A stretch of DNA of 64,000 nucleotides, from contig JAPSLO010000009.1 of the NCBI GenBank assembly GCA_031180725.1, forward strand, positions 62,001 through 126,000, read 5' to 3'. A program made the position numbers and the translations under genes. Each line of letters starts with the position of its first letter. The first letter of the stretch is position 1. The notes below the pieces were generated by a model that had not been told where the DNA came from, searched no databases, and saw only the letters and a program-made list of their open reading frames with translations. This document shows, one piece after another, positions 46,691 through 64,000 of this stretch. The DNA is from Roseomonas sp. (GTDB taxonomy: Bacteria > Pseudomonadota > Alphaproteobacteria > Acetobacterales > Acetobacteraceae).

Positions 46691-48741
46691 GCGAGCTGCA
46701 TCGCTTGCTGCGGCCACGCAGCGTCGCCGTGGTCGGCGCATCCGCCGATCCCTCCAAGACCACCGGCCGGCCTATCGGCTACCTGCTGCGGCACGGCTTC
46801 GGCGGCGAGGTCTGGCCGGTCAATCCGCGGGTTGCCGAACTCTCCGGCCTGCGCTGCTACCCGGACATCGCCAGCCTGCCCGGCGGGCCCGACGTTGCAA
46901 TCGTGTTGCTCGGACCGGAGCGGGCCGGTCAAGCGGTGCGGGAACTCGCGGAGCGGGGCACCGGCGCGGCAATCGTGCTCGCGGGCGGCTATGCCGAGGC
47001 GGGCGGGGAGGGGGCCGACCGCCAGCAGGCCTTGCGCGAGGCGGCGGGCACCATGCGCCTGCTCGGGCCAAACACCATCGGGCTGGTGAACCTCGCCGAC
47101 CGCATCGTGCTCTCGGCCTCCGGCGCGCTGGAAATCGGGGAGCTGCCGCCTGGGCGCATCTCCCTCGTCTCGCAATCCGGCGGGATCCTGGGCGCGGTGC
47201 TGTCGCGTGCCGCAGCGCAGGGCATCGGCTTCGCGCGCCTCGTCTCGACCGGCAACGAGGCCGACCTGGAGGTCGCCGACTTCCTGGACCTGCTGGCCGA
47301 GGACCCCGGCACCGACGTGATCGCCCTCTATCTGGAAGGGCTTCGCCGGCCGGAGGCTTTTCGGGCCGCCGCCCGTAAGGCCGCCGCCGCGGGCAAGCCG
47401 GTGGTCGCCTTCAAGGTCGGACGGTCCGAAGCTGGGGCGGCGGCGGCAATTTCCCATACAGGCGCGCTGTCGGGCGCGGACCGGCTGTACGACGCCCTGT
47501 TCCGCCAGCTCGGGGTGATCCGGGCGGAGCGCTTCTCCGACCTGCTCGACATTCCCGCCGCGCTGGCCAGTGGGCGGCGCGCGGCGGGGCGGCGCGTCGC
47601 CGTGCTGACCTCGACCGGCGGAGCCGGTGCACTGCTGGCCGACTCCTTCGGCTTGGCCGGCTTCGAGCTGCCGCCACCTGATGCGGCCACGGCGACGCGG
47701 ATCTCCGCCCTGACGGGGGAAGCGGCCGCCGCGAACCCGCTGGACCTGACCCTAGCCGGGCTGAAGCCGGAGGTCTTCCGCGGCGCCCTGACGGCGCTGC
47801 TGGAGAGCCCCAGCTATGACGCCGTGACGGTGGTGGTCGGCTCCTCCGCCCTGGCGCAGCCGCGCCTGGCGGCGGATGCGATCGCGGCTTGCCAGACAGG
47901 CCAGGAGAAGCCGGTGCTGGCCTATGTCAGCCCGCATGCGCCCGCGATCCTCGCGGCGCTGAACGCGCAGCGCATCCCGGCCACGGCCGCGCCGGAAGCG
48001 GCTGCGGCCATGCTCGCGTCCCTGGCACGGCCGCTCGCCGCCGCGGCCCCGGAAGCCGCGCAGGCCGAATCGCAGCCCGGCCTGCCCTCCGGCCCGCTGG
48101 ACGAGGCGGAGAGCAAGGCGCTCTTCGCCCGCTTCGGCGTGCCCGCCGTGCGAGAGGAAACCGCCAGAACCCCGGCCGAGGCCGCGGAGGCCGCGCGGCG
48201 GATCGGCGGCCGCGTGGTGCTGAAGGCGCGGTCGCGGCACCTCTCCCACAAGACGGAGGCCGGCGGTGTCCGGGTCGGCCTGACATCGGAGGAGGTGGAG
48301 GCGGAGGCAGAGCGCATGCTCGCCCGCGTTGCCGCCGCGACGGGCCGCGCGCCGGATGGGCTGCTGGTGCAGGAGCAGGTGTCGGGCGGCGTGGAGATGA
48401 TTCTGGGGCTGCGGCGCGATCCGCATCTCGGCACCGCGCTGCTGGTCGGGCTTGGTGGTGTCGCGGCGGAGGTCTTCGGCGACACCGCGCTGCGCGTGCT
48501 GCCGCTCTCCCGCACGGAAGCCGAGGCCATGCTGGCGGAGCTGCGCGGCCGGCGCCTGCTGGAGGGTTTCCGCGGCACCCCGCAGGCCGACATCCCGGCC
48601 CTGCTCGATGCGATGATGCGCTTCGCCGCGATGGGCGAGGCGCTCGGGCCGCGCCTGCTGGAGGCGGAGATCAATCCGCTCTTCGTGCTGCCTCGTGGCG
48701 CCGGCGTCCGTGCGGCCGACGGGCTGGCCGTCCTGGCCTGA
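46687..48741 (+). CDS. NDP-forming acyl-CoA synthetase (acetate--CoA ligase family)
   Basis: This 684-residue fused alpha-beta enzyme has a CoA-binding Rossmann domain (RSVAVVGASADPSKTTGRPI, residues 11-30). Succinyl-CoA-ligase-like domains follow, with the phosphohistidine in AAISHTGALSGADRLYD, and a C-terminal ATP-grasp domain with VVLKARSRHLSHKTEAGGVR. It couples acid + CoA + ATP to acyl-CoA, ADP and phosphate, reversibly. The ATG overlaps the crotonase stop by four bases. A paralogue with the same gene order lies at 62290. Confidence 0.93.
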   Translation: MSELHRLLRPRSVAVVGASADPSKTTGRPIGYLLRHGFGGEVWPVNPRVAELSGLRCYPDIASLPGGPDVAIVLLGPERAGQAVRELAERGTGAAIVLAGGYAEAGGEGADRQQALREAAGTMRLLGPNTIGLVNLADRIVLSASGALEIGELPPGRISLVSQSGGILGAVLSRAAAQGIGFARLVSTGNEADLEVADFLDLLAEDPGTDVIALYLEGLRRPEAFRAAARKAAAAGKPVVAFKVGRSEAGAAAAISHTGALSGADRLYDALFRQLGVIRAERFSDLLDIPAALASGRRAAGRRVAVLTSTGGAGALLADSFGLAGFELPPPDAATATRISALTGEAAAANPLDLTLAGLKPEVFRGALTALLESPSYDAVTVVVGSSALAQPRLAADAIAACQTGQEKPVLAYVSPHAPAILAALNAQRIPATAAPEAAAAMLASLARPLAAAAPEAAQAESQPGLPSGPLDEAESKALFARFGVPAVREETARTPAEAAEAARRIGGRVVLKARSRHLSHKTEAGGVRVGLTSEEVEAEAERMLARVAAATGRAPDGLLVQEQVSGGVEMILGLRRDPHLGTALLVGLGGVAAEVFGDTALRVLPLSRTEAEAMLAELRGRRLLEGFRGTPQADIPALLDAMMRFAAMGEALGPRLLEAEINPLFVLPRGAGVRAADGLAVLA

Positions 48742-50474: not shown

Positions 50475-51218
50475 TCAGCCCATGACATCCATCAGGGCTG
50501 GCACGCCGAGCGAGCAGGCATGCACGCCCAGATGCGCGGTCATCTGCAGGACCTGAAGCAGCTCCTCCCGCGTCGCGCCGAGACGAAGGGCGCGTTGAAG
50601 ATGCAGGCGCGTGGCCGCGGGGTCCCGCGCCGTGAAGCATGCGGACAGCGCCACGGAGATCAGCGCGGCAGACTTCTCGTCCAACCCATCGCCGCCATCA
50701 CCGCAACTCAGGAGGTCGAGCAGCGCCGCGAAATAGGCGGGATCCAGTCGCAGCATCTGGTCGCAGAAATCCGGCCAGTCACCGAACCGGGCCTCGTAAG
50801 CTTCCCGCAGGCCGCGGTGAGCCGGATCCGGCGGCGGGAGAGGCTGGCCCGCCTTCTCCAACTCCTCCACCAGGAGGCCGAGCCCCATCGCCACGCCATC
50901 CAGGCCCTGCAGTGTGGCCAGGCGCAGCACTTCCACCAGCTGCCGCGCGGTCGCGCCGCGTTCGAGCGCCAGGCGCATATGGAGCTTGAGGCCGGACTCG
51001 AAGAGATGCGTCGCCGAGGCGTCGAGCGCCACATAGATCAGCTCGCACATCACCGGCGAGAGCGGACCATGCGCGGCGGGGTGCCCGGCATAGCGCGCAT
51101 AGGCGTCGAGGAAATCAGGATGGAGGCGCAGCAGGCCCTCGGTCCATGGCTTCCAGTAGCCGCGCGCGCGGATGTAGGCGGCCTTTCTGGCCTCCTGTTC
51201 GGGGGTCAGCTCCGTCAT
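50475..51218 (-). CDS. Carboxymuconolactone decarboxylase family protein, duplicated domain
   Basis: This 247-residue protein has two tandem CMD-like helical halves. The first covers about residues 35-115 (HGPLSPVMCELIYVALDASA, LKLHMRLALERGATARQLVE) and the second about 150-240 (LDEKSAALISVALSACFTAR, RLHLQRALRLGATREELLQV). The redox CxxC of AhpD is absent. It overlaps the double-domain SDR gene by four bases (start at 51218), so both are one operon read leftward. Confidence 0.85.
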   Translation of the reverse strand: MTELTPEQEARKAAYIRARGYWKPWTEGLLRLHPDFLDAYARYAGHPAAHGPLSPVMCELIYVALDASATHLFESGLKLHMRLALERGATARQLVEVLRLATLQGLDGVAMGLGLLVEELEKAGQPLPPPDPAHRGLREAYEARFGDWPDFCDQMLRLDPAYFAALLDLLSCGDGGDGLDEKSAALISVALSACFTARDPAATRLHLQRALRLGATREELLQVLQMTAHLGVHACSLGVPALMDVMG

Positions 51219-52570
51219 ACGATGTCCAATCCGCCATGGGCGCTGAGCCCGCCATCAACCGGCACCAGGCTGCCGGATACGAAGCCGGAAGCGGGGGAGA
51301 GCAGGAAGTCGGCCACTGCCGCGACCTCCGCCGGCTGGCCAGCGCGGTGCAGGGGGACGCGCGGCAGCAGCTTCGCTTCCTCTCCCGCCAGCAGGCCGGT
51401 GGCCAGGCAGTTCACGCGGATGCCGCTGGCGCCCCATTCGCAGGCCATGGTGCGCGTCAGCATACCGATTGCGGCCGCCTCGGGGCCTGCCGGGCCGGTC
51501 TCCGGCAGGCCAAGCTGGCCGAGCACGGAGGTCAGGTTGACGATGGCACCGAAGCCCTGGCGCAGCATGATGCGCCCGGCTGCCTGCGCACCGAGGAAGA
51601 TGCGGTCGAGATGACCCGGCTCGCCCGGCAGCGGATCGGTGTTGAGCAGGCCGTCCAGGCGCCCATGGCGGTCCATGTCCGGCCCGGCTGGCACCGTCAC
51701 CACGCCGCGCGCGACCAGCCGTGCTGCCAGTGCCTCGGCGGTCGCGCCTGGACCCAGGGCGATGACCGGCGCGCCGGGCGGCGGCGGTGCGGGCAGCGCC
51801 CCGCGAGGGACATTCACGTCCTCGCTGCCGCCATAGGCATGTGAGGCGCCGTCCGCGACCAGCAGCGCGCCGGTCATATAGGCCGCGTCCGGCGAGGCCA
51901 GGTGCAGGATCGCGGCGGCGATCTCCGCCGGCTCGCCCATGCGGCCGAGCGGGATGCGGCGCGCCGCCTTCGCCGGATCCACCCGGCCTTCGGCGATCAG
52001 GCGATCGACCAGCTCGGTGCGCGTATAGCCTGGGGCGATGGCATTCACGCGGATGCCGTCGCGGGCCCAGGCGCAGGCATGATTGCGGGTCAGCGCCACC
52101 ACCCCCGCCTTGGAAGCGCTGTAGCCGTTGCGCAGTGGGATGGCGCGCAGCGCGGCGCCGGAGGCGACGTTCACGATCACGCCGCCGCCCTGCCGGCGCA
52201 TCAGCGCAGCGGCCGCTTCTGACGCAGTGGCGGTGCCGCCGAGATTGAGTGCGAGAAGGCTGCGGAAGCCCTCCGGCGTCTGCTCGGTGACGGGGGTGCC
52301 GCCATCGATGCGGCCGGCATTGTTCACAAGAACATCCAGGCGCCCGTGCTGAGCGGCGATGCGGGCGATCATCGCGGCCACGGCATTGGGATCGGCCATG
52401 TCCACGGTGATCGCCTGGTGACCGGCGCCGAGTTCCAGAGCGCGCGCGGCGGCGCGGCTGCCATCGATGTCGGCCAGCAGGACGCGGTCGCCGGCTTCCG
52501 CGAAGGCGCGGGCGGTGGCCCAGCCAATACCGGCTGCGGCGCCGGTGACGAGGACGATGCGGGCTGTCAT
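51215..52570 (-). CDS. Tandem short-chain dehydrogenase with degenerate second domain
   Basis: This 451-residue protein joins two SDR units. Residues 1-245 form a complete enzyme with VLVTGAAAGIGWATARAFAE, VLVNNAGRIDG, VNVASGAALRAIPLRNGYSA with catalytic Ser, Tyr and Lys (YSASK), and TGALLVADGASHAYGG. A Pro/Ala-rich linker follows. The second unit (about 265-451) keeps the late SDR pattern (AIVNLTSVLGQLGL, GIRVNCLATGLLAGEE, GSLVPVDGGLSAHGG) but lacks the glycine-rich nucleotide motif and the YxxxK pair. It is probably structural or allosteric. It starts 157 bases from a TetR-type palindrome shared with the divergent Bug gene. Confidence 0.85.
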   Translation of the reverse strand: MTARIVLVTGAAAGIGWATARAFAEAGDRVLLADIDGSRAAARALELGAGHQAITVDMADPNAVAAMIARIAAQHGRLDVLVNNAGRIDGGTPVTEQTPEGFRSLLALNLGGTATASEAAAALMRRQGGGVIVNVASGAALRAIPLRNGYSASKAGVVALTRNHACAWARDGIRVNAIAPGYTRTELVDRLIAEGRVDPAKAARRIPLGRMGEPAEIAAAILHLASPDAAYMTGALLVADGASHAYGGSEDVNVPRGALPAPPPPGAPVIALGPGATAEALAARLVARGVVTVPAGPDMDRHGRLDGLLNTDPLPGEPGHLDRIFLGAQAAGRIMLRQGFGAIVNLTSVLGQLGLPETGPAGPEAAAIGMLTRTMACEWGASGIRVNCLATGLLAGEEAKLLPRVPLHRAGQPAEVAAVADFLLSPASGFVSGSLVPVDGGLSAHGGLDIV

Positions 52571-52716
52571 GGCCGGCCGGCCGCCGTAATGGGGCGGATG
52601 TTCACCTGGGCTTCCTCCTCGTCACAGCGGACACCTGCCGATGCCGACCGATAGGTCAGCATCATGCTGGAGATAGGTCGCGCAGTGAAGCTTCTAATCT
52701 TGGCTACATTCTGAAT

Positions 52717-52738
52717 TGACCGACCGACCGGTCTGTAC
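52717..52738. promoter_or_regulatory. TetR-type operator A
   Basis: TGACCGACCGACCGGTCTGT contains the ACCGACCGGTCTGT palindrome, centred at 52729/52730 with one mismatch in 14. It lies 60 bases upstream of a Bug gene and 147 upstream of the divergent SDR operon. It matches four other sites around the TetR gene. Confidence 0.7.
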
Positions 52739-52797
52739 ATAGGGTCGCTGCAGCCACACGCCCGACCAGGGCGAAGGATCACGGAAGGAAGCGCGCC

Positions 52798-53769
52798 ATG
52801 CCCCCGATCAGCCGTCGCGGCACGACCATCCTCGCTGCCGCACTGCTTCTCGCCAGGGCGGCGCGCGCGCAGGGCTTCCCTGACCGCGCCGTGCGCCTGA
52901 TCATGCCCTATGGTCCGGGAAGCGAACCGGACCTGCTCGGCCGCCAGCTCGCCCAGGGTATGGCGCCCGTGCTCGGCCAGCCGGTGGTGGTGGAGAACCG
53001 CGTCGGCGCTTCCAGCATGATCGGCGCGGAGGCGGTGGCGAATGCGCGGCCTGATGGACATACACTGCTCTTCGCCGGCTCCACGGTCTTCGCAGCAAAT
53101 CCGCATCTGTTCAGCCGCACGCCCTATCGGCCGGAGCAGTTCCAGCCGATCACGCTGCTCATGCGCGGGCGCATCCTGCTCTACACCAATCCCGCCGCCG
53201 GCTACGCCGACCTGAAGGACCTGATCGCCCGTGCAAAGGCCGCGCAAGAGCCCCTGCGCTTCGGCAGCACCGGCCGTGGCAACGGCACGCATCTCTCGGC
53301 CGAGCAGTTCCGCGCGCAGGCCGGGGTCGAGCTGACGGACATCGCCTATCGCACGACGGTCGAGATGCAGCAGGGGCTGATGCGTGGCGACATCGACATG
53401 GCCTTCGACAGCATCGGCCCCTATCTGGGCCTGCTGCGCGACGGGCGCCTGAAGGCGCTGGGCACTGCCGGGGCACGGCGCATCAGCGTGTTGCCGGAGG
53501 TTCCGACCTTCGCCGAGCAGGGTTTCCCGGATCTTGGCATGCCGTACTGGTACGGGCTCTACGCACCGGCGGGCCTTCCCGCCCCGGTGCTGGCCACGCT
53601 GCACCGTGCGGCGGTTGCTGCCATGTCCGACCCGGCGCTGCTCGCGCGGGCCGAGCAGCAGGGCGCCATCATTGAGACGCAGGATGTCGCGACCTTCACC
53701 GAGATGAACCGCAGCGAATTCATCGCCTGGGGGCGCCTGATCGGCGCGCTGGGCGTGAAGCTGGACTAG
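52798..53769 (+). CDS. Bug/TctC family receptor
   Basis: This 323-residue exported protein has a short signal peptide (TTILAAALLLARAARAQG). Landmarks are VRLIMPYGPGSEPDLLGRQL, VVENRVGASSMIGAEAVANA, FAGSTVFAANPHLFSRTPYR, FGSTGRGNGTHLSAEQFRAQ and LPYWYGLYAPAGLPAP-like. It closely resembles the receptors at 56814 and 59360 in the GSEPDL/ANPHLF pattern, so these form a subfamily. TetR-type site A lies upstream. Confidence 0.93.
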   Translation: MPPISRRGTTILAAALLLARAARAQGFPDRAVRLIMPYGPGSEPDLLGRQLAQGMAPVLGQPVVVENRVGASSMIGAEAVANARPDGHTLLFAGSTVFAANPHLFSRTPYRPEQFQPITLLMRGRILLYTNPAAGYADLKDLIARAKAAQEPLRFGSTGRGNGTHLSAEQFRAQAGVELTDIAYRTTVEMQQGLMRGDIDMAFDSIGPYLGLLRDGRLKALGTAGARRISVLPEVPTFAEQGFPDLGMPYWYGLYAPAGLPAPVLATLHRAAVAAMSDPALLARAEQQGAIIETQDVATFTEMNRSEFIAWGRLIGALGVKLD

Positions 53770-53854
53770 GGCAGGGCGCCGACTGCGGCGAGGCCCGACG
53801 CATGAGAAGGACGCTGCCGCCGGTCATGGAGGACCGGTGGCGTGAGCGGCACCT

Positions 53855-54349
53855 TCACGCCGCGGCCAGGGACCGAAACGCACCCTGGAAGTTCAGCAGG
53901 GGCTCGCCGCAGCGGTAGCGGGCGGCTACCACGCGGCCAATGAAGATGCCGTGGCTGCCCGCGCGCTGATGCGTCTCCAGCACGCACTCCAGGCCGCACA
54001 GCGCATTCTCCAGTACTGGCGCGCCGCTCTCCCCGGTGATCCAGCCCGCTTCTCCGAAGCGTGCCGCGCCCTGCACGCCACCCTGTCCAGCGAAGACCAG
54101 TGCGAGTTCCGCATGCTCCGGTCCGAGGAGGTTCACGGAGAAGCTGCGGTGCCGGAGCACCGCGTCGTGGCTGCCGGAGGCTGCATTGATGCAGACCAGC
54201 ACCATCGGCGGGTCCGCCGAGACCGAGGTGACGGCGGTCACCGTCAGGCCCCGCCGTGCTTCGCCCTGACCGGTGGCGACGATGGCGACACCGCCGGCCA
54301 GGTTGCGCATCGCACCCCGGAACGTGGTGGCATCGACCGCCGGCGTCAT
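53855..54349 (-). CDS. Flavin reductase family protein
   Basis: This 164-residue FMN-binding split-barrel protein has FRGAMRNLAGGVAIVATGQG, LTVTAVTSVSADPPMVLVCI, SFSVNLLGPEHAEL, HGIFIGRVVAARY and LLNFQGAFRSL, all typical of the HpaC-like reductase component of two-component flavin monooxygenases. It would supply reduced FMN using NAD(P)H. It overlaps a 101-residue hypothetical gene by four bases and is read with the luciferase-like monooxygenase upstream, its probable partner. Confidence 0.93.
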   Translation of the reverse strand: MTPAVDATTFRGAMRNLAGGVAIVATGQGEARRGLTVTAVTSVSADPPMVLVCINAASGSHDAVLRHRSFSVNLLGPEHAELALVFAGQGGVQGAARFGEAGWITGESGAPVLENALCGLECVLETHQRAGSHGIFIGRVVAARYRCGEPLLNFQGAFRSLAAA

Positions 54350-54651
54350 GTCTCGGCTTCCAGATGCGCGCGAATGCCGCCCGCCTCGTCAACCCAGCCG
54401 CGGCTGCGGGCGAAGGCCAGCATCCGTGCGAAGCCCTCGGCCCAGGCGGGATCAGCCGCTCGTGGCGCCATGCGGCGCAGCGCGGCTTCCGAGACCCAGG
54501 CTGCTTCGCCATCCGGTCGTGCCACGCGGCGCAGCGCGGCCTCCGCCACCGCCGTACCGCGCGCGCCCGGGTCGAAGCGGATGGAGAAGCGGCGGAAATC
54601 GTCCGGCTCCTCCAGCAACGCCTCGCCGCCCGCGGTGATCCGGACGAACAC
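54346..54651 (-). CDS. Hypothetical protein between monooxygenase and flavin reductase
   Basis: This 101-residue soluble protein begins MFVRITAGGEALLEEPDDFR and is rich in Ala and Arg, with repeated EAALRR segments (AVAEAALRRVARPDGEAAWV, SEAALRRMAPRAADP). Its ATG 54651 is 4 bases after the luciferase-like gene's stop, and its end overlaps the reductase start by four bases. It may be a small third component of the monooxygenase. No family is recognised. Confidence 0.7.
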   Translation of the reverse strand: MFVRITAGGEALLEEPDDFRRFSIRFDPGARGTAVAEAALRRVARPDGEAAWVSEAALRRMAPRAADPAWAEGFARMLAFARSRGWVDEAGGIRAHLEAET

Positions 54652-54655
54652 CGGA

Positions 54656-55729
54656 CTACTCCGCTGCCATCGTGGCCGCCGGCGCGGTCACGCCCAGCTC
54701 CTTGCGGATGGCCGGGATGATGCGGCTGCCCCAAAGCTCGATCTGCTTCATCATCGTCCTGTGGTCGAAGTCGCCGAGCTGGGTCTGGATGGCGACATGC
54801 TTTGGCCGGAGGATGCGGATCTCTTCCACCATCCGCTCTACCACCTGGTCCACGCTGCCCACCGGCAGGTTGGCGCGCATTTGGTCCAGCGTCAGGTCGT
54901 TGGGGCTCTCCTCCTCGCGCACCAGGAAGCCGTCGTCGGAATGGGCGCGACGATACTTCAGCGCTTCGGAGATGCGGCGCTGGTAGCGGGCATTCTCCAG
55001 GTAGCTCGTGACCTCGGCATCGCTGCCAGCATAGGCGCAGCGCAGCAGCGCGATCTTGGCATCCTCGATGCGCTTGCCCTCGCGTTCGGCAATGGCGGTC
55101 AGGCCGCTCCGCATCTGCTCCAGCCGGTCCTTGCCGTTGAGCAGGGCAGTGACGAAGAGGTTGTGGCCCTCCCGGATCGCCCGGGCCTGGGTTTCGGGGT
55201 GCCCGGTGGCAATCCAGATCGGCGGCATGGGCTTTTGCACGCAACGCATGCTGATGGTGGTCAGCGGAAGCTGGATGTGCTTGCCCTCGTAGGCGAAGCC
55301 CTTCTCCTTCAGGCCGAGCTGGATCACGTCCAGGAACTCGTGGAAGATCGCGGGTGCCTCCTCGATCTTCACGCCGAAGCGATCGAACTCGAACTTCTGA
55401 TAGCCCGAGCCGACGCCGAGCTCGAGCCGGCCGCCGGAGACGGTGTCGCAGAAGCCGGCCTCGGCCAGCAGGCGCGCCGGATGGTACATCGGCAATACGC
55501 AGACGGCGCTGCCCAGGCGGATGCGCTTCGTCAGCGCCGCCATATGCGCCACCATCATCAGCGGCGAGGGGCAGAGGCCATAGTTGGAGAAATGATGCTC
55601 GGCATACCAGGCGGTGTCGAAGCCAGCCTGGTCGGCGGCGACGGTCTGTTCCACCGCGTAGCGCAGCACGTCCTGCGAGGTCTGATGATAGCCGCGCTGT
55701 TGCATCAGGATGAAGATGCCGAATTCCAT
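54656..55729 (-). CDS. Luciferase-like (LLM) flavin-dependent monooxygenase
   Basis: This 357-residue TIM-barrel monooxygenase starts at ATG 55729 (MEFGIFILMQQRGYHQTSQD), behind GGGAAGGAAGC. The LLM pattern is clear in AGFDTAWYAEHHFSNYGLCP, RIRLGSAVCVLPMYHPARLL and EAGFCDTVSGGRLELGVGSG, and in VGSVDQVVERM near the C-terminus. Such enzymes use reduced FMN from a partner reductase to oxidise C-C, C-S or C-N bonds. The flavin reductase lies two genes downstream in the same operon. It is divergent from a LysR gene. Confidence 0.93.
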   Translation of the reverse strand: MEFGIFILMQQRGYHQTSQDVLRYAVEQTVAADQAGFDTAWYAEHHFSNYGLCPSPLMMVAHMAALTKRIRLGSAVCVLPMYHPARLLAEAGFCDTVSGGRLELGVGSGYQKFEFDRFGVKIEEAPAIFHEFLDVIQLGLKEKGFAYEGKHIQLPLTTISMRCVQKPMPPIWIATGHPETQARAIREGHNLFVTALLNGKDRLEQMRSGLTAIAEREGKRIEDAKIALLRCAYAGSDAEVTSYLENARYQRRISEALKYRRAHSDDGFLVREEESPNDLTLDQMRANLPVGSVDQVVERMVEEIRILRPKHVAIQTQLGDFDHRTMMKQIELWGSRIIPAIRKELGVTAPAATMAAE

Positions 55730-55836
55730 CAGGTCGCTTCCTTCCCTCGGGTGGAGCGACATTAGGCGCTCGCCAGCATACGCAACAATACACTATATTC
55801 GAGCAGCATCTTTGCGGATTTCGTAAAGGGGAGCGC

Positions 55837-56757
55837 ATGGGCCGCCTCCAGGCCATGGAGCTGTTCGTGAGCGCCGTGCGGGAGGGGAGTTTTTCCGCCG
55901 CCGGGCGCCGGGCCGGGCTGTCGCCCGCCTCCGTTTCGCGCCAGGTCGCGGCACTGGAAGCCGCGCTGAACGCGCAACTGTTGAACCGCACCAGCCGGAC
56001 GCTGACGCTGACCGAAGCCGGCCGCGAATACTTGGCGCGGCTGGAGCCGATCCTGCAGAACATCGCCGAGGCCGAGGCGGCGGCGGCCGCGCTGCAGGCC
56101 ACGCCCCGCGGAACATTGCGCGTGCATTCGCGGATGATGTTCGGCATGCGCGTGGTGGCGCCGCTGATCCCCGCCTTCCAGGCCCGCTATCCCGAGCTGC
56201 GCGTGGAGCTTCGCCTGGGCGAACACCCGGCGCGCCTGGCGGAGGAGGAGATCGACATCGATCTGCGCATCGGTGCGCCGCCCGACGCGCAGCTCATGCA
56301 GCGCCGGCTGCTGCGCAGCGAACGCGTGCTGGTGGCCAGCCCCGACTACCTGGCCCGCATGCCACCGGTAAAGGTGCCGCGCGACCTGCTGGCGCATCGC
56401 TGCCTGGCCTACTGGCTGGGGCCAGAGGATGTGGTGTGGCGTTTCCTGGCCGATGGCGCGTTGGAGGAACTGCGGATCGCTGCCCATTTCGCCAGCAACA
56501 ACGGCGAAGTGCTGCGCCATATGGCGATCGCCGGCCATGGCATCGCGCTGCTGGACGACTACACCGTGCGAGAGGAGCTGGCGAGCGGGCGGCTGCAACG
56601 CCTGCTGCCGGACGTGCGGGTGACCAATACCGGCTTCGACCTCGGCATCTACGCTGTCTTCCGCCAGACCAGCCTGCTGCCGGCCAAGACGCGCGCCTTC
56701 CTGGACTTCCTTGTCGAGGCGCTGCCCGGCCTGGTCGGGACCACTGCCGTCCGTTGA
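55837..56757 (+). CDS. LysR-family transcriptional regulator
   Basis: This 306-residue regulator has the helix-turn-helix MGRLQAMELFVSAVREGSFS, AAGRRAGLSPASVSRQVAAL and an effector domain of the DsdC/PgrR-like subgroup (MFGMRVVAPLIPAFQARYPE, EIDIDLRIGAPPDAQL). It is divergent from the luciferase-like operon 107 bases away. Its stop codon overlaps TetR-type site B, which precedes the next Bug gene. Confidence 0.92.
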   Translation: MGRLQAMELFVSAVREGSFSAAGRRAGLSPASVSRQVAALEAALNAQLLNRTSRTLTLTEAGREYLARLEPILQNIAEAEAAAAALQATPRGTLRVHSRMMFGMRVVAPLIPAFQARYPELRVELRLGEHPARLAEEEIDIDLRIGAPPDAQLMQRRLLRSERVLVASPDYLARMPPVKVPRDLLAHRCLAYWLGPEDVVWRFLADGALEELRIAAHFASNNGEVLRHMAIAGHGIALLDDYTVREELASGRLQRLLPDVRVTNTGFDLGIYAVFRQTSLLPAKTRAFLDFLVEALPGLVGTTAVR

Positions 56758-56771
56758 CTGACCGGTCGGTC
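56756..56771. promoter_or_regulatory. TetR-type operator B
   Basis: GACTGACCGGTCGGTC, centred at 56763/56764, is palindromic with one mismatched pair. It overlaps the LysR stop codon and lies 42 bases upstream of the Bug gene at 56814. Confidence 0.7.
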
Positions 56772-56813
56772 CGCGACTAGCTTCCGCGCCTTGGCGGGAG
56801 GAAGGACGAGTTC

Positions 56814-57773
56814 ATGCGACACACCCGACGCGGCATTCTGGTCGCCCTGGCGACCCTGCCGGCGCTACGCCTCGCCGAGGCCCAGGCGAGGCCCATCCGC
56901 CTGGTGGTACCCTACAGCGCAGGCAGCGGGCCGGACATCTTCGCCCGGCGGCTAGCGCAGGGAATGTCGGCGCGACTCGGCAACCCGATCGTGGTGGACA
57001 ACCGTTCCGGCGCGACGACGATGCTGGGTGCCGAGCATGCTGCTGCCTCGGCGCCCGACGGCCACACCCTCTTCATGGGCACCTCGACCACCTTCGCGGC
57101 CAACCCGCATCTTTTCCAGAAGATCAACTACCGGATCGAGCAGTTTCAGCCGATTTCCATGCTGATCCGCACGCGGCTCGCGCTCTATGCCGGCCCGAGC
57201 CTGGCAGCCCAGGACATGGCCGGCGTGATCGCGCTGGCGAAGGCGGCGCCGCAGCCGCTGCACTATGGCATCACCGGTCGCGGTAATTCCACGCACCTGA
57301 CCGGCGAGGCGCTGAAGCTCGCTGCGGGACTGGACATGGTCGACGTGCCCTATCGCGGCACGCCGATGATGCAGCAGGGGATCATGCGTGGCGACCTGCC
57401 GCTGGCGATCGACGGCATCCCCGCGTGGCTCAGCCTGGTGCAGGAGAAGCGGGTGAAGGTCATCGCGGTAACTGGCGAGACCCGTGTTCCCGCATTGCCG
57501 GACACGCCGACCTTTGCCGAGAGCGGCGTGCGTGACACCGGCCACCAGCACTGGTACGGATTGCTGGCGCCCGCTGGCCTGGAGGCACCCGTGCTGGCGC
57601 GGCTGCACCAGGCGACCGTCGCCACCATGGGTGATGCCGAACTCTGGCGGAACCTGACGCATGAGGGCGCGACGATCGAGACCAATACGCCTGAGGCCTT
57701 CGGCACCCTGATTGCGGAGGAGACGGAGACCTGGGGCCGCATCATCCGGCGCATTGGCCTGACGCTGGAGTAA
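56814..57773 (+). CDS. Bug/TctC family receptor
   Basis: This 319-residue exported protein has a signal peptide ending near residue 23 (ATLPALRLAEAQA). Family features are IRLVVPYSAGSGPDIFARRL, VVDNRSGATTMLGAEHAAAS, STTFAANPHLFQKINYRIEQ, YGITGRGNSTHLTGEALKLA and VPYRGTPMMQQGIMRGDL. It is close in pattern to the receptors at 52798 and 59360. The stop codon abuts that of the convergent SMP-30 gene with no spacer. TetR site B is upstream. Confidence 0.93.
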   Translation: MRHTRRGILVALATLPALRLAEAQARPIRLVVPYSAGSGPDIFARRLAQGMSARLGNPIVVDNRSGATTMLGAEHAAASAPDGHTLFMGTSTTFAANPHLFQKINYRIEQFQPISMLIRTRLALYAGPSLAAQDMAGVIALAKAAPQPLHYGITGRGNSTHLTGEALKLAAGLDMVDVPYRGTPMMQQGIMRGDLPLAIDGIPAWLSLVQEKRVKVIAVTGETRVPALPDTPTFAESGVRDTGHQHWYGLLAPAGLEAPVLARLHQATVATMGDAELWRNLTHEGATIETNTPEAFGTLIAEETETWGRIIRRIGLTLE

Positions 57774-58643
57774 TCAGACCCTGGCGAGGGGCTCGGCAAT
57801 TCCTGTCACGCCGAGCCCGGTAATGGCGAAGAGCCCGCCGCCCTCGGGCTCCGGCGCGGTCAGGCGGTGGCTGCGCGAGATCGAGGTCACGTAGAGCACG
57901 TCGAGCGCCGGGCCGCCGAAATTCAGGCTTGTCGGGTGGCTGACGGGCATGCGGAAGCGCCTGACAAGCCGGCCGGCGGGATCGAAGCGTCCGATCTCGC
58001 CGCTGCGCACCAGGGCGAACCAGAGATGGCCCTCGGCATCCACCGTGCCGCCATCCGGCGCGGTGCCGAAGGGGGCGAGATCAACCAGGACGCGGCGGTT
58101 GGTCGGCGGCCCGTCCCCGGCATCGTAGTCGAAGGCCCAGATCACCTGGCGCGGGCTGTCGGCCAGGTAGAACCTTCGCCCGTCCGGGCTGAAGCAAGGC
58201 CCGTTGGCGGTCGCGATATCCTCCGCCAGCTTCGTCACACGCCCGCCCGCGCCGAGCCGGTAGAGTCCGCCGAGCGGCCTGGCGCCGGCGGCCAGGTTCA
58301 TGTGCATCGTGCCCGCGACGAAGCGACCCTGCCTGTCGACCTTACCGTCGTTCAGGCGGAGATCGTGGTGAATGGCGTCCAGCGCGGCGACAGGCGTGAC
58401 GGTGCCGCCAGTGTACCGGTGGAAGCCATCCGCCAGCGCCAGCAGCATCGAACCGTCCTCGCAGAGCGCGAAGGAGCCGACCGGCGCCGGTACGGGCACA
58501 GTTTCATGCACGCCGGTCGCCGGATCCAACCGATGCAGCAGGCCCGCCAATGAATCCACCCAGTAGAGGCGTGCTTCCCGGGCGCTCCAGACCGGGCTTT
58601 CACCCAGCAGATCCCGAGTGCTGCCGATCCGTGTGATGTCCAT
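57774..58643 (-). CDS. SMP-30/gluconolactonase-family lactonase
   Basis: This 289-residue six-bladed beta-propeller starts at ATG 58643, with GGGAGGCTAGG upstream. Expected metal-site residues are present: the Glu in LLGESPVW, the Asn in IATANGPCFSPDG and the Asp in PDGGTVDAEGHLWFA. LRLNDGKVDRQGRFVAGTMH is the family's active-site strand. Members hydrolyse aldonolactones and other lactones in the cytoplasm or periplasm; no signal peptide is seen. It is divergent from the TetR gene, with operator C between them. Confidence 0.92.
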   Translation of the reverse strand: MDITRIGSTRDLLGESPVWSAREARLYWVDSLAGLLHRLDPATGVHETVPVPAPVGSFALCEDGSMLLALADGFHRYTGGTVTPVAALDAIHHDLRLNDGKVDRQGRFVAGTMHMNLAAGARPLGGLYRLGAGGRVTKLAEDIATANGPCFSPDGRRFYLADSPRQVIWAFDYDAGDGPPTNRRVLVDLAPFGTAPDGGTVDAEGHLWFALVRSGEIGRFDPAGRLVRRFRMPVSHPTSLNFGGPALDVLYVTSISRSHRLTAPEPEGGGLFAITGLGVTGIAEPLARV

Positions 58644-58670
58644 CCTAGCCTCCCTGTGCAAAGGTGACGG

Positions 58671-58688
58671 TCACCGACCGGTCGGTCA
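58671..58688. promoter_or_regulatory. TetR-type operator C
   Basis: TCACCGACCGGTCGGTCA contains a perfect 14-base palindrome (ACCGACCGGTCGGT, centred at 58679/58680). It lies 51 bases upstream of the TetR start and 27 upstream of the divergent lactonase start, so it predicts TetR autoregulation and control of the lactonase. Confidence 0.78.
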
Positions 58689-58739
58689 ACGCTTGCGGCG
58701 ATTCGCCGGACGGGCCAGTGTCAGGCGCGGAGGTGATGG

Positions 58740-59357
58740 ATGGCGCGTGCGGCAGCAAAGGTCCCGGCGACGGAGGTGGGCGAATCCACCGAGCGCGTCC
58801 TGCAGATCCTTTCGGAGTCTGCGCGGCTCTTCGCCACCAATGGCTATGACGGTACCTCGATGCGCGACATCGCGGAGGCCTGCGGAATCTCCAAGTCGCT
58901 GCTCTATCACCACTTCGCCGACAAGGACGAGATCTTCGCCCGCATCGCCCTGGGCTCAACACGGGAGCTTTACCACTTCGTTTTTGACCGCCTGCCGGAA
59001 GGCGCGACACCGTCGGAGCGCATTCGCGCCTTCATGGTCGCCACGGGCGAGTATTTCCAGCGCTACCGCTGGGCCTGGCTCGCCTCGACCAGTGCCTTCT
59101 GGAACGACCCGGAGCAGCGGCGCCAGAAGGAGCGGCTGATGTGGCGCGACCGCTACGAAGGCCTGATCCGCACGCTGATCCAGCAGGCGATCGACGCCGG
59201 CGAACTGCGCCCCCTGGACGTGCCGCTGGCCGGCAGGCTTGTGCTCTCCGCCCTGAACTGGATGCACCGCTGGTACAAGCCGGAGCAAGGCCTGCCGGCA
59301 TCGCAGATCGCCGACGCCTATTTCGACATGATCTTCCGCGGCCTGAAGGCTGATTAG
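58740..59357 (+). CDS. TetR/AcrR-family transcriptional regulator
   Basis: This 205-residue regulator has an N-terminal TetR helix-turn-helix (residues 18-65: RVLQILSESARLFATNGYDG, TSMRDIAEACGISKSLLYHH, FADKDEIFARI) and a helical ligand-binding domain (LIQQAIDAGELRPLDVPLAG, LNWMHRWYKPEQGL). The C-terminal pattern resembles the KstR2/FadR-like group that senses acyl-CoA or related ligands, so a CoA thioester is a reasonable guess for the effector. It is the only TetR gene in the window and sits at the centre of the five palindromes. Confidence 0.93.
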   Translation: MARAAAKVPATEVGESTERVLQILSESARLFATNGYDGTSMRDIAEACGISKSLLYHHFADKDEIFARIALGSTRELYHFVFDRLPEGATPSERIRAFMVATGEYFQRYRWAWLASTSAFWNDPEQRRQKERLMWRDRYEGLIRTLIQQAIDAGELRPLDVPLAGRLVLSALNWMHRWYKPEQGLPASQIADAYFDMIFRGLKAD

Positions 59358-59359
59358 GG

Positions 59360-60337
59360 CTAGTCCAGCTTCAGGCCGATGCTGCGGATCAACTGGCCCC
59401 AGCGCTCGCTCTCGCTGGCCAGCAGCGTCTGGAAGGCCTCCGGGTCAATGCCTTCCATCGTCGATCCCTGCGCCATCATCTGCTCGGTCAGCCGGTCGCC
59501 ACGCAGCCCTGCCCGCACCGCGTCCAGGATCTTCGCCGCCACTGCGTCCGGCGTGCCGGCCGGCGCGAACAGGCCATACCAGTAGGGCTGCGCCATGTCC
59601 GGGAAGCCGGCCTCGGCGAAGGTCGGCACATCCGGCAGCGCCTGGATCCGGCGTTCGCCGGTCACGGCAAGCGCCCTCAACTCGCCGTTCCTCACCAGGC
59701 CGATATAGGCAGCGAGGCCGTCGAAGCCGACATCCACATCCCCGCGGATCAGCGCCTGCGCCGCTGCCGTGCTGGCGCGGAAAGGGACATCTGTCATCTG
59801 CAGGCCGGTGACCTGCTTCATCCGCTCGCCCGAGAGATGCGCCACCGCACCGCGGTTGGTGGTGGTGAAGGTGATGCCGTTCGGCTGCCGCCGCGCGTAC
59901 TCCACCAGTTCCGCCACCGTGCGGACCGGCAGCTTGGGGCTACAATAGAGCGCAAGCTGCGCGCGCATGAGCTGGGTGATAGGCCGGAACTGCTCCAGCC
60001 GGTATGGCAGCCTGGTGAAGAGATGCGGGTTGACCGCGAAGGTGGTGGAGGAGGTCAGCAGCAGCGTGTAGCCATCGGGGCGCGACTGCGCGACGTGCTC
60101 GGCCGCGATCAGGGTGGTGGCACCCGGGCGGTTGTCGATGACAACCGGCTGGCCCAGCACGTCCTGCATGGCCGGCTGCATGGCGCGTGCCAAGATGTCG
60201 GGCTCGCCACCGGGGGAAAAGGCGACGACGATGCGCACCGGCCGATCCGGCCAGGCCTGGGCGCGCGCCACGCGGGCGAAGCCAAGCGACAGCATCCCGC
60301 CGGCAAGCGCCCGGCGGCCGAAATCCGTGCCCTTCAT
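59360..60337 (-). CDS. Bug/TctC family receptor
   Basis: This 325-residue exported protein starts at ATG 60337 (MKGTDFGRRALAGGMLSLGF) with a twin-arginine-like signal region and cleavage near VARAQA. Landmarks are VRIVVAFSPGGEPDILARAM, VIDNRPGATTLIAAEHVAQS, SSTTFAVNPHLFTRLPYRLE, FTTTNRGAVAHLSGERMKQV and QPYWYGLFAPAGTPDAVAAK. Its stop is 3 bases from the convergent TetR stop. It is second in an operon behind another Bug gene, 26 bases away. Confidence 0.93.
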   Translation of the reverse strand: MKGTDFGRRALAGGMLSLGFARVARAQAWPDRPVRIVVAFSPGGEPDILARAMQPAMQDVLGQPVVIDNRPGATTLIAAEHVAQSRPDGYTLLLTSSTTFAVNPHLFTRLPYRLEQFRPITQLMRAQLALYCSPKLPVRTVAELVEYARRQPNGITFTTTNRGAVAHLSGERMKQVTGLQMTDVPFRASTAAAQALIRGDVDVGFDGLAAYIGLVRNGELRALAVTGERRIQALPDVPTFAEAGFPDMAQPYWYGLFAPAGTPDAVAAKILDAVRAGLRGDRLTEQMMAQGSTMEGIDPEAFQTLLASESERWGQLIRSIGLKLD

Positions 60338-60363
60338 TCTTCGTCTCCTCCGAAGCCGCGGTT

Positions 60364-61323
60364 CTATTCCAAAGTAATGTTCTTCTCGCGGATGATGCGG
60401 CCCCACTGGGCCATGTCCTGCGCCATCTGCTGCCGCAGCAGTTCCGGCGGGCCGGAGATGGCGCGCAGCGCCTCGCCCGCCAGGCGCTGGCGGATGGCCT
60501 GGCTCTCCATCGCCTTGTTGGCCGCGGCGTTGAGCCGCGCGACGGCATCGGCCGGCGTGCCGGCGGGGCAGAGCAGGGCGGTCCAGAAGCCGGTGACAAG
60601 CTCGGGATAGCCGGCTTCCTTGAAGGTCGGGATTTCCGGCAGCAGCGGCGCGCGTTCGGGGAAGGAAAGGCCGAGCAGCCGCAGGCGCCCGGCGCGGATA
60701 TGCTCGAGTGTCGTCGTCGGCGCCTCGACGCTGATTTCGATGATGCCGGCCAGGAGATCGGTGGTGGAGGGGCCATTGCCGCGATAAGCGACATCGGTGA
60801 GCTGAATGCCCATGGCATTGGCCATGAGGATGCCGAAGAGATGCCCGACGCTGCCGGCGCCGTTCGTGGCATAGCGCAGCGGGTTGGGGCTCGCCTTGGC
60901 GTAGGCCACGAACTCCGCGATGGTCTTCGGCGGCAGGTTCGCGTTGATGGTCAGGGAGAGCGGCCCATCGAAGAGCAGCGCGACCGGCGTGAAATCCTCG
61001 AGCAAGTAGGGCAGGCTGGGCCGCATCAGGACGTTCAGCGGCAGGCCGGCCGTGCCGCCGACCAGCACGGTCAGCCCGTCCTTCGGCGCGCGTGCAACGG
61101 CTTCCGTGGCGATTATGGCGTTGCCGCCTGGCCGGTTCTCCACGACGATGGTCTGGTCCAGCGTCTGCGCCATGTGCTGCGCCACCAGGCGGGTAATGAT
61201 GTCCGTCAGGCCGCCCGCGGCGAAAGGCACCACGAAGCGGATGGTCCGGGCCGACTGGGCCCGTGCGACCGCCGGCACGGCGAGGCTCGTGGCCAGCAGC
61301 GCACGCCGGGACAGCAGGACCAT
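60364..61323 (-). CDS. Bug/TctC family receptor
   Basis: This 319-residue exported protein starts at ATG 61323, with GGAGGAG upstream, and has a signal peptide (SRRALLATSLAVPAVARAQ). Features are IRFVVPFAAGGLTDIITRLV, VVENRPGGNAIIATEAVARA, YATNGAGSVGHLFGILMANA and LTDVAYRGNGPSTTDLLAG. It leads the operon with the Bug gene at 59360; two receptors in series is unusual. TetR-type site D lies 50 bases upstream. Confidence 0.93.
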   Translation of the reverse strand: MVLLSRRALLATSLAVPAVARAQSARTIRFVVPFAAGGLTDIITRLVAQHMAQTLDQTIVVENRPGGNAIIATEAVARAPKDGLTVLVGGTAGLPLNVLMRPSLPYLLEDFTPVALLFDGPLSLTINANLPPKTIAEFVAYAKASPNPLRYATNGAGSVGHLFGILMANAMGIQLTDVAYRGNGPSTTDLLAGIIEISVEAPTTTLEHIRAGRLRLLGLSFPERAPLLPEIPTFKEAGYPELVTGFWTALLCPAGTPADAVARLNAAANKAMESQAIRQRLAGEALRAISGPPELLRQQMAQDMAQWGRIIREKNITLE

Positions 61324-61372
61324 GGACATCTCCTCCACAGGGGCGTTCTTGCCGGTGATCCTAGGTCCAGGC

Positions 61373-61386
61373 TGACCGCCCGGTCA
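61373..61386. promoter_or_regulatory. TetR-type operator D
   Basis: TGACCGCCCGGTCA is a 14-base site with perfectly paired outer six-base arms (TGACCG and CGGTCA). It lies 50 bases upstream of the leftward double-Bug operon. The weaker internal match suggests lower affinity than site C. Confidence 0.6.
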
Positions 61387-61447
61387 ACATACATGCCGGC
61401 GCAAGATTGAGGTTGTAGCTAGGCATGAGCGGGACTATCAGGACACT

Positions 61448-61461
61448 GACCGACCGGTCAG
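61448..61461. promoter_or_regulatory. TetR-type operator E
   Basis: TGACCGACCGGTCA has the same perfectly paired outer arms as site D and the GACCGGTC core of site C. It lies 41 bases upstream of the rightward enoyl-CoA hydratase gene. Confidence 0.7.
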
Positions 61462-61502: not shown

Positions 61503-62288
61503 ATGTCCGCAGCATCCATGTCTGACGAAATCGTGAAGCTCGACGTCGCCGACCACATCGCCCTGGTCACCTTGAATCGTCCGCCGGTCAATGCGCTGAA
61601 CCGCGCCATGCGTGACGCCATCATCGAGGTCTTCGACGCGATCTCCGAGCGCGAGGATATTCGCGTCGCGGTGCTCACCGGCGCCGGCAAGGCTTTCTGC
61701 GCCGGTGCCGACCTCAAGGACCGGCCAGATCCCACGAAAACCGGCGCCTTCCACGCGCATAACCGTGTGACGCGGGAGACCGGAAATGCCATTCGGGAAT
61801 GCGCCAAGCCGGTGATCGCCGCCGTGAATGGCGCGGCGCTCGGCGCCGGGCTCGGGCTGATGGCGGCCTGCGACATCTTCCTCGCCGCGGAGGATGCAGT
61901 CTTTGGCATGCCGGAGATCGATGTCGGCCTGGCCGGCGGCGGCGCCATGCTGCGCACCATCTTCGGCCGCTCCACCATGCGGATGATGATGTACACGGGC
62001 TGGCGGCTGACCGGTGCCGAACTTTACCGCCGCGGCATCATCGAAAAGGCGACGAAGCCCGAGGAGCTGCTGCCCGAGGCGATGCGCTATGCCGAGTGCA
62101 TCGCGAACAAGAGCCCTCTGGCGATCAACTTCGCCAAGACCTCGGCCAACATGGTGGATCTGATGCCGCAGCGCGATGCCTACCGGTTCGAACAGAACTT
62201 CACCGTCGCCCTTTCCCGCACCGAGGATGCCAAGGAGGCGCGCATGGCCTTCGTCGAGAAGCGTAAGCCGGTCTTCAAGGGGCGCTGA
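61503..62288 (+). CDS. Enoyl-CoA hydratase/isomerase family protein
   Basis: This 261-residue crotonase starts at ATG 61503 or 61518 (MSAASMSDEIVKLDVADHIA). FCAGADLKDRPDPTKTGAFH and VNGAALGAGLGLMAACDIFL form the CoA and oxyanion sites. The first catalytic Glu is Gly (GAGLGL), while the second is kept in MPEIDVGLAGGGAMLR, a pattern seen in several isomerase-, lyase- or hydrolase-type crotonases. The next gene, an acyl-CoA synthetase, starts one base after its stop. TetR-type site E precedes it. Confidence 0.9.
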   Translation: MSAASMSDEIVKLDVADHIALVTLNRPPVNALNRAMRDAIIEVFDAISEREDIRVAVLTGAGKAFCAGADLKDRPDPTKTGAFHAHNRVTRETGNAIRECAKPVIAAVNGAALGAGLGLMAACDIFLAAEDAVFGMPEIDVGLAGGGAMLRTIFGRSTMRMMMYTGWRLTGAELYRRGIIEKATKPEELLPEAMRYAECIANKSPLAINFAKTSANMVDLMPQRDAYRFEQNFTVALSRTEDAKEARMAFVEKRKPVFKGR

Positions 62289-62289
62289 G

Positions 62290-64000
62290 ATGACGGCCAT
62301 CGGTGCCGGGCTGGAGGCCATCCTCGCACCCCGCTCCATCGCGATCATCGGCGCGTCCCAGGACCCGACGAAAATCGGCGGGCGCCCGGTGGAGCTGCTG
62401 CGCCGGTTCGGCTTTCCCGGGGCCATCTATCCGGTGAACCCGCGCGCGGCGGAAGTGCAGGGGCTTCCGGCCTATGCTTCCATCGCCGCGGTGCCCGAGA
62501 CGCCAGACCTCGCCATCATCGCCGTGGCTGCGGAGGCCGCGCCGGAGGCGTTGGAGGCATGCGCGGGAAGGGGCGTGAAGGGCGCCGTGATCTTCACCTC
62601 CGGCTTTGCCGAACTGGGCGCGGCGGGAGAGGCCCTGCAAGCACGGCTGCGCGACACCGCAAAGCGCACGGGTATCCGTGTCCTCGGGCCGAACTGCCTC
62701 GGTGCCGTCAGCATCGCGGAACGCAGCATCGCCACCTTCTCGATCGTTCTGGAAGGCAGCCTGCCGCCGGCCGGCCCGCTCGGTATCGCCTCGCAGAGCG
62801 GCAACCTAGGCAGCTACACGGCGCTCCTGGCACGGGAGCGGAATATCGGCATCAGCCGCTTCCTGACCACTGGCAATGAATGCGATGTGGACATAGCGGA
62901 TGCCATCGCCTGGCTTGCACGAGATCCGGCCACCAAGGTGATCCTTTGCGTGTTGGAGACCTGTCGAGACGCCCCTCGCCTCGTCGCCGCGCTGGAGGAG
63001 GCGCGGCAGGCTGGCAAGCCGGTGGTGGTGCTGAAGATCGGCGCTTCCGAGGCCGGGCAGGCCGCCGCCGCTTCCCACACCGGGGCACTGGCCGGATCGG
63101 ATGCGGTCTTCGACGCGGTCTTCCGTCGTGCCGGCGCAGCGCGCGTGTACAGCGTGGAACAGCTCCTCGACCTCGGCCACGCCGCCGCCGTGCTGGGTGA
63201 CCGGCTGCCGAAGGGCCGTCGGACCATGCTGCTGACAGCCTCGGGCGGATTCGGCGTGCTGCTGGCCGACGCAGCAAGCGCCGCGGGCCTCTCCCTGCCT
63301 ACGCCCTCGGAAGAGACGCAGCGGCGCATCCTGGCCGTCGTGCCCTATGCCTCGCCGCGCAACCCGGTGGATGCAACGGCGCAGATGTCGAGCCGGCCGG
63401 AGATCCTGGAGGCGATCCTCGCCGCGCTTCTTGAGGACGATAGCTGCGACGCGCTGCTGCTGCTGCTCTCCTCCTCGCTCTACCTACCCCGGCTGCGCAG
63501 CGTCTATATGCCGACGCTGCGGGCGGTGCGGGAGAAGCACCCCGGGAAGGTCGTGATGCTCGCCGTGCACGGGCCGGCGGATGCTGTGGCGGAGCTTACC
63601 GCCATGGGCTTCCCGGTGGTGGATGGCGTTGGTCCCTCGGCCCAAGCGCTGGCCGGGCTCTGCGACCTTGCCGCCGCGCGGTCGCTGCCGCCACCGCCCG
63701 GCACCCCGCCGGCCGCGCCGCCGCTGGACCGCGATTCGATCGCCAGCGAGGCTGGTGCCAAGGCGGTGCTCGCCGCGGCCGGTGTTCCGGTGCTGCCGGA
63801 GCGTGTCGTCGGCAGTGCCGCGGAGGCGGCAAAGGCCGCTTCCGCCATGGGCTTTCCTGTCGTGCTGAAGATCGTCTCGCCTGACCTGCCGCACAAGACA
63901 GAGGTCGGCGGCGTGGTGCTCGACCTGCGCGACGCCGAAGCGGTGGCAGCCGCGCATGAGGCCATGCTGGCCCGTGTGCGCGCCGCGGCGCCGGCGGCGC
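62290..64000 (+). CDS. NDP-forming acyl-CoA synthetase, cut by the window end
   Basis: At least 570 residues are visible from ATG 62290; the frame stays open to the last base. The CoA-binding domain begins RSIAIIGASQDPTKIGGRPV, the phosphohistidine is in AAASHTGALAGSDAVFD, and the ATP-grasp domain opens with VVLKIVSPDLPHKTEVGGVV. Domain order matches the 684-residue paralogue at 46687, so about 110 residues are missing. It is co-transcribed with the hydratase one base upstream and presumably activates the acid brought in by the local Bug receptors. Confidence 0.93.
   Translation, partial: MTAIGAGLEAILAPRSIAIIGASQDPTKIGGRPVELLRRFGFPGAIYPVNPRAAEVQGLPAYASIAAVPETPDLAIIAVAAEAAPEALEACAGRGVKGAVIFTSGFAELGAAGEALQARLRDTAKRTGIRVLGPNCLGAVSIAERSIATFSIVLEGSLPPAGPLGIASQSGNLGSYTALLARERNIGISRFLTTGNECDVDIADAIAWLARDPATKVILCVLETCRDAPRLVAALEEARQAGKPVVVLKIGASEAGQAAAASHTGALAGSDAVFDAVFRRAGAARVYSVEQLLDLGHAAAVLGDRLPKGRRTMLLTASGGFGVLLADAASAAGLSLPTPSEETQRRILAVVPYASPRNPVDATAQMSSRPEILEAILAALLEDDSCDALLLLLSSSLYLPRLRSVYMPTLRAVREKHPGKVVMLAVHGPADAVAELTAMGFPVVDGVGPSAQALAGLCDLAAARSLPPPPGTPPAAPPLDRDSIASEAGAKAVLAAAGVPVLPERVVGSAAEAAKAASAMGFPVVLKIVSPDLPHKTEVGGVVLDLRDAEAVAAAHEAMLARVRAAAPAA

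Follow-up and report, generated by a model that had tools for sequence, protein, structure and literature searches.

A predicted five-site operator set of a PfmR-like TetR regulator in a CoA-linked catabolic gene cluster of Roseomonas sp.

A gene cluster with the genes of a coenzyme A (CoA)-linked acid catabolism was analysed in a 64,000-nucleotide stretch of Roseomonas sp. DNA (the window), which covers bases 62001-126000 of the 260-kb contig C31 in a genome of 5.69 Mb. The cluster includes a TetR-family regulator gene, four genes for TctC-type receptors (Bug1 to Bug4), a gene for an SMP-30/gluconolactonase-like protein (SGL) and a hydratase/CoA-ligase operon (Table 1). The window TetR is most probably an autoregulated, PfmR-like repressor of this cluster, predicted from its sequence to act through five sites (A to E). 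In the correct register, these sites are 14-bp palindromes with the common core GACCGNNCGGTC and the operator form TGACCGNNCGGTCA. Action of the TetR protein at these promoters is well supported, because the core is rare, is conserved in relatives and co-occurs with the TetR gene, because the motif equals the operator of PfmR, and because a change of operator goes with a change of the recognition helix. The sites, their rarity and conservation, the match to the PfmR operator and the joint operator/helix change in a paralogue clade are read directly from the sequence.

Operator sites in the window

A scan of the whole window found exact cores only at sites A to E, and the five palindromes of one family described in the earlier note are real. 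The 18-bp consensus given there was used first and was replaced by the 14-bp form after relatives had been compared. The longer consensus finds four window sites at up to three mismatches (52717, 56755, 58671 and 61447), whereas 0.06 are expected in shuffles; it misses 61373. As the true operator it did not hold, since it mixes two overlapping registers; the fifth site has five mismatches to it (at 61369) yet is exact to TGACCGNNCGGTCA.

Operators D and E are the only exact copies of TGACCGNNCGGTCA in the genome and form the Bug4/hydratase pair, so that the best site is not, as had been proposed, the one at the TetR gene's own promoter. Operator C has outer pairs that are half T:A and half C:G, and A, B and C all lack a full T:A outer pair. 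Operator A, the weakest match of the five, is centred 70 bp 5' of Bug1 and 158 bp 5' of the start of the short-chain dehydrogenase (SDR) gene; operator B is centred 48 bp 5' of Bug2, directly behind the LysR stop codon. At up to two mismatches TGACCGNNCGGTCA has 314 matches in the genome; weak matches by themselves therefore mean little, and a weak sixth site, A', is for this reason listed as a candidate. Operator D overlaps a -35-like TTGACC (minus strand, 61387-61358) that is separated from TAGGAT by an 18-bp spacer; the pair is one of three promoter-like matches in the region where 0.6 are expected. On inspection by eye, TTGAC(C/T) likewise precedes or overlaps A and B.

The core GACCGNNCGGTC occurs 16 times in the genome: at the five sites A to E, at two places in a paralogous TetR cluster on contig C36, and at nine others. 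Eight of these nine lie inside called open reading frames (ORFs), including one just 24 bp behind a called start and one in a weakly scored ORF of 89 amino acids (aa), and the ninth lies between convergent genes; by the simple purpose-made caller used around them, none is placed at a promoter. The many equally good, promoter-placed matches elsewhere that would have spoken against the regulon were thus not found. The binomial P for at least five of the 16 cores within 8,745 bp is 4e-11, with pattern and region picked after looking.

A separate observation concerns AGACCGTCCGGTCT at G000:C36:29781 (L249), where an RND-type efflux gene has its called start; another TetR_N gene is 1.6 kb away. This sequence is possibly the operator of that neighbouring regulator.

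Match to the PfmR operator

The TetR_N domain of the window TetR scores 67.3 bits (curated cut-off 24). Its gene accounts for one of the 20 TetR_N matches in the genome and for the only one on this contig, in agreement with a single TetR gene in the cluster. The neighbourhood of gene and sites cannot prove their link, and the comparison with PfmR and the paralogue clade were therefore used. The closest solved structure by sequence is 3vpr (E 2e-38; 135 bits vs 77 for the next PDB match), which is PfmR of Thermus thermophilus (PMC10636190). As regards a possible orthology with PfmR, beyond general similarity, this is by far the best PDB match, and the tree placement next to long branches is unsure.

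PfmR (TTHB023) is reported to bind the optimum CTGACCGATCGGTCAG with a dissociation constant (KD) of 2 nM, which rises to 23 nM when the outer T is changed (PMC7022988). Operator E with its flanks on both sides reads CTGACCGACCGGTCAG and matches this optimum. Among 39 sites of relatives, the positions that the search had left free favour flanking C/T and a central AT, again in agreement with the PfmR optimum; the central AT and flanking C/G are the most frequent in relatives. This optimum serves as the independent check on the 14-bp pattern, whose count in relatives is partly circular.

Conservation in relatives

The nearest named relative of the window TetR is found in Falsiroseomonas stagni (89% identity). 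Seventeen of 68 TetR loci, those at 47% identity or more (47-89%; L040-L056, near-copies included), were scanned and contain 26 operators without a mismatch and 17 with one, where shuffles yield 0.05 and 1.3. In the same loci 40 permuted palindromes average 0.1 exact and 2.2 one-mismatch occurrences. With up to one mismatch allowed, a 20-locus set contains 48 sites; 40 lie outside called genes, and L045 is the locus of this set with none. Gene starts within 260 bp of the 48 sites belong to hydratase (16), Bug4 (14), TetR (12), Bug2 (7), SGL (5), CoA ligase (5), Bug3 (4) and Bug5 (1); both genes were counted at divergent promoters, three sites have no assigned start, and some mismatched sites inside called homologous genes were left out of the locus listings.

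The arrangement of the sites is conserved as well, and the lack of conservation in orthologous clusters that would have counted against the regulon did not occur. Paired sites 71-81 bp apart lie between Bug4 (or Bug3) and hydratase in L048, L050, L051, L053 and L054. The position of operator B before Bug2 recurs in L040, L041, L054 and L234, and sites upstream of TetR, as operator C is, are also present in relatives.

Across 146 genomes, the seven with a close TetR average 2.57 exact operators and the 139 others 0.52 (p 4e-6; 2e-5 when restricted to the family); genomes with a distant or paralogous TetR only (G001, G002, G007, G050 and G089) are counted among the 139. In the seven genomes, 13 of the 18 exact sites are no more than 13 kb away from the TetR gene. 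Hydratase homologues in four genomes without a TetR match (G028, G047, G049 and G065) have no site in front, a weak control since these homologues are 61-73% identical and stand in other gene settings, and since the G049 contig begins inside the gene before hydratase, so that the promoter is unseen. Three of these four genomes carry one exact operator elsewhere. A class-wide search for distant TetR orthologues at E 1e-35 returned one of 385 genomes, the source genome itself.

Several points weigh against the proposed regulon. Some of the relatives' loci had already been seen when the 14-bp pattern was settled, which makes the 17-locus count partly circular. No core was found in L042 and L045. 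Operator A has no counterpart in relatives; a close Bug1 homologue is present in just one of them (L053/L234, 73-76%), and there no site precedes it. An exact operator occurs somewhere in 43 of the 139 genomes without a close TetR, and the one exact site of the TetR-bearing G086 is not near its TetR gene. Other TetR proteins read similar sites, among them SbtR with TGACYrnnyRGTCA (PMC7022988). The helix/operator agreement set out below counts as one switch on the tree, on which long branches are flagged (L056 and L230).

Helix type and outer base pair in a paralogue clade

A second TetR on contig C36 is 52% identical to the window TetR and has Ala-Thr where the window TetR has Ser-Leu in the recognition helix. 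Its cluster contains two cores, one before a hydratase gene and one before a Bug gene, and holds two of the four exact C:G operators CGACCGNNCGGTCG in the genome. Compared with the window operator, the site apparently used by the paralogue is altered in one symmetric base pair.

After removal of 15 near-copies from 55 TetR rows, the 40 non-redundant rows comprise 17 Ser-Leu, 22 Ala-Thr (21 loci) and one Ala-Leu protein, and cores are present in 15 of 17, 17 of 21 and one of one loci, respectively. Ser-Leu loci contain 31 sites, of which 24 have T:A next to the core on both sides and none has C:G; of the 28 sites at Ala-Thr loci, 23 have C:G and none has T:A. A single site, of the T:A type, is present at the Ala-Leu locus (L230), and a distant Nitratireductor protein (L056, 47%), whose place on the tree is unsure, combines a Ser-Leu helix with a T:A site. 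Order-2 shuffles give fewer than one expected site per class in each helix group. The site-wise Fisher P for the association is 6e-14, with kinship ignored. The Ala-Thr proteins form one clade (support 98/99), and the agreement therefore represents one switch kept since rather than many. This co-variation links the TetR protein to the sites beyond mere neighbourhood.

In DarR, a lysine and a glycine of the same helix motif are reported to contact bases (PMC10636190); in our reading they correspond to Lys52 and Ser53 of the window TetR. A broader and tentative proposal, to which we give slightly less than even chances, is that the two paralogous TetRs run parallel acyl-CoA catabolic clusters whose operators, TGACCGNNCGGTCA and CGACCGNNCGGTCG, are kept apart by one symmetric base pair. 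Which pair is read would depend on Ser53-Leu54 versus Ala-Thr, and mainly on Leu54, because the sole Ala-Leu protein also has a T:A site. Graded or shared control by the two systems would then take place at the half-and-half operator C and at the imperfect sites A and B.

At a further locus in a relative, L170 (G001:C25:57000-76000), about 7.8 kb separate two Ala-Thr-type TetR genes, each of which has CoA-ligase genes and C:G-type sites next to it.

Alternative explanations

The alternative that survives best, though it is unlikely, is a common use of the sites by the window TetR and its C36 paralogue, in which case the five sites would belong to one of two cross-regulated regulons rather than to a separate one. 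The 52% identity of the two proteins and the incomplete T:A outer pairs of A, B and C, with the mixed pairs of C, are in its favour. It is opposed by the distribution of sites, both in this genome, where the two exact T:A operators are in the window cluster and half of the exact C:G operators in that of the paralogue, and across 38 loci, where the surroundings of Ser-Leu genes contain no pure C:G site and those of Ala-Thr genes no pure T:A site.

Assignment of the sites to the LysR regulator of the cluster was considered and rejected as very improbable. The LysR gene lies within the interval and adjoins site B, and it is kept next to the monooxygenase gene in several relatives. However, L044, L048, L050, L051 and L052 have sites and no nearby LysR homologue apart from a 33% match in L044, an absence that is uncertain where L048, L050 and L051 cover in some cases less than 1.5 kb of upstream neighbourhood or none. 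The divergent region between monooxygenase and LysR also has no site, and the motif is one reported for a TetR protein (PMC7022988). Chance formation of the palindromes in a genome of 70% G+C has next to no probability, even with a G+C-rich pattern and the 314 loose matches, given the excess of 18-bp matches in the window, the five of 16 cores within 8.7 kb and the sites at the same promoters in relatives.

Proposed regulation

In the proposed PfmR-like regulation, the TetR dimer would bind (C/T)TGACCGNNCGGTCA(G/A). The exact sites D and E would serve the divergent promoters of the Bug4-Bug3 operon and of the hydratase/CoA-ligase/acyl-CoA-dehydrogenase operon, and the weaker sites would act before Bug2 (B), between the TetR and SGL genes (C) and between Bug1 and the SDR gene with its carboxymuconolactone decarboxylase-family (CMD) neighbour (A). 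The contrast between the two exact sites of the hydratase/Bug4 promoters and the imperfect sites B, C and A suggests graded control. Repression most likely occurs by occlusion, as TetR at D would cover the -35-like element. The CoA thioester made by the ligase of the cluster probably releases TetR; this inducer is suggested by the CoA-ligase gene and by analogy with MbdR (PMC4424350). Binding, repression, inducer, substrate and operon extents are what we infer from this arrangement, as are the terms uptake and one unknown acid in the earlier note. Control of the cluster by one TetR, also proposed there, is well supported by sequence as far as the link of TetR to the sites is concerned; the LysR gene and the monooxygenase, 101-aa protein and flavin-reductase genes in the interval have no site of at most two mismatches in front.

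Genes of the cluster

Table 1. Operators and genes of the TetR cluster and of its paralogue (window positions unless stated otherwise)
Feature	Position	Strand	Sequence	Remarks
Operator A	52721-52734		CGACCGACCGGTCT	between Bug1 and SDR/CMD genes; exact core, 2 outer mismatches
Candidate site A'	52645-52658		CGACCGATAGGTCA	76 bp from A; 2 mismatches
Operator B	56759-56772		TGACCGGTCGGTCC	before Bug2; 1 mismatch
Operator C	58675-58688		CGACCGGTCGGTCA	between divergent TetR and SGL genes; 1 outer mismatch
Operator D	61373-61386		TGACCGCCCGGTCA	before Bug4-Bug3 operon; exact, 1 of 2 in genome
Operator E	61447-61460		TGACCGACCGGTCA	before hydratase operon, 74 bp from D; exact, 1 of 2 in genome
CMD-family protein	50475-51218	-		two CMD stretches
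Double SDR	51215-52570	-		two SDR stretches in one 451-aa protein
Bug1	52798-53769	+		TctC-type receptor
Flavin reductase, 101-aa protein, luciferase-like monooxygenase	53855-55729	-		inside interval
LysR-family regulator	55837-56757	+		inside interval
Bug2	56814-57773	+		TctC-type receptor
SGL	57774-58643	-		SMP-30/gluconolactonase-like protein
TetR-family regulator	58740-59357	+		TetR_N, TetR_C_24; recognition helix GISKSLLYHHF, residues 49-59
Bug3	59360-60337	-		TctC-type receptor
Bug4	60364-61323	-		TctC-type receptor
Enoyl-CoA hydratase (ECH)	61503-62288	+		
CoA ligase, NDP-forming type	62287-64000, on to 64407 beyond window	+		Pfam on first 571 residues
Paralogue cluster (L018)	G000:C36:533052-539912			CoA ligase, acyl-CoA dehydrogenase, hydratase, Bug genes; two exact CGACCGNNCGGTCG

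All four Bug proteins contain the TctC-type receptor domain PF03401. The partner TctA has nine matches in the genome, all on other contigs and none on C31, and the Bug proteins may therefore be orphans whose role in uptake is a presumed one. The CoA-ligase gene is followed by two acyl-CoA dehydrogenase genes and an SDR gene, and the hydratase operon probably extends through these, past the window, to 67369. The genes present led us to consider a Baeyer-Villiger-type route (monooxygenase, lactonase, SDRs and dicarboxylyl-CoA dehydrogenases). We do not claim it, because the monooxygenase, the flavin reductase and the two acyl-CoA dehydrogenases reached the cut-off of no NCBIfam model, and diketocamphane monooxygenase is just a weak match to the monooxygenase (E 3e-9).

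A second hydratase/NDP-forming CoA-ligase pair is present at 45893-48741 of the window and has no operator of at most two mismatches nearby. Behind the hydratase operon, at 67455-73553 in window coordinates and thus outside the window (L017), there is an IclR gene (by Pfam), followed by genes that resemble by sequence those of an FAD monooxygenase, a fumarylacetoacetate-hydrolase-type protein, a VOC protein and two more Bug receptors.

Comparison with known systems

A TetR-controlled catabolic cluster is a known kind of system; a paralogue clade whose operator differs by one symmetric base pair is added here and is unusual. The analysis provides a concrete predicted regulon for an uncharacterised acid-catabolism cluster common to Roseomonas-like bacteria; no published account of the regulon appeared among the open-licence papers listed by the searches. 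It also provides a natural case of how duplicated TetRs may stop cross-reacting, through one symmetric operator pair and one or two helix residues, a separation maintained over 17 non-redundant loci of the one type and 21 of the other.

Among other TetR repressors, KstR2 of mycobacteria is one of the closest solved structures (E 1e-17). It controls cholesterol-ring catabolism, with an acyl-CoA inducer and a different operator. MbdR of Azoarcus represses a catabolic cluster and is released by the CoA thioester of the substrate, but its operator is ATACN10GTAT and its pathway is an anaerobic aromatic one (PMC4424350). PA3973 was rejected as a comparison, its reported motif being different (PMC9736018). 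SbtR (TTHA0167) of T. thermophilus, whose operator is very similar, is likened to the window TetR by operator alone.

The closest known system is PfmR of T. thermophilus HB8, whose in-vitro optimum equals the window motif. PfmR is described as a repressor; the operon that begins with its gene also contains acyl-CoA dehydrogenase, SDR-type and CoA-ligase-related genes, and the PfmR consensus allows either C or T as the outer base (PMC7022988). The sites before the window TetR's own gene and before the hydratase/CoA-ligase genes may serve an autoregulation and acyl-CoA gene control of the PfmR type. The two systems differ in the helix, which has Ala-Ala in PfmR and Ser-Leu in the window TetR, and in the Bug receptors, SGL and monooxygenase, which the window cluster has and which do not appear in the excerpted descriptions of the PfmR system.

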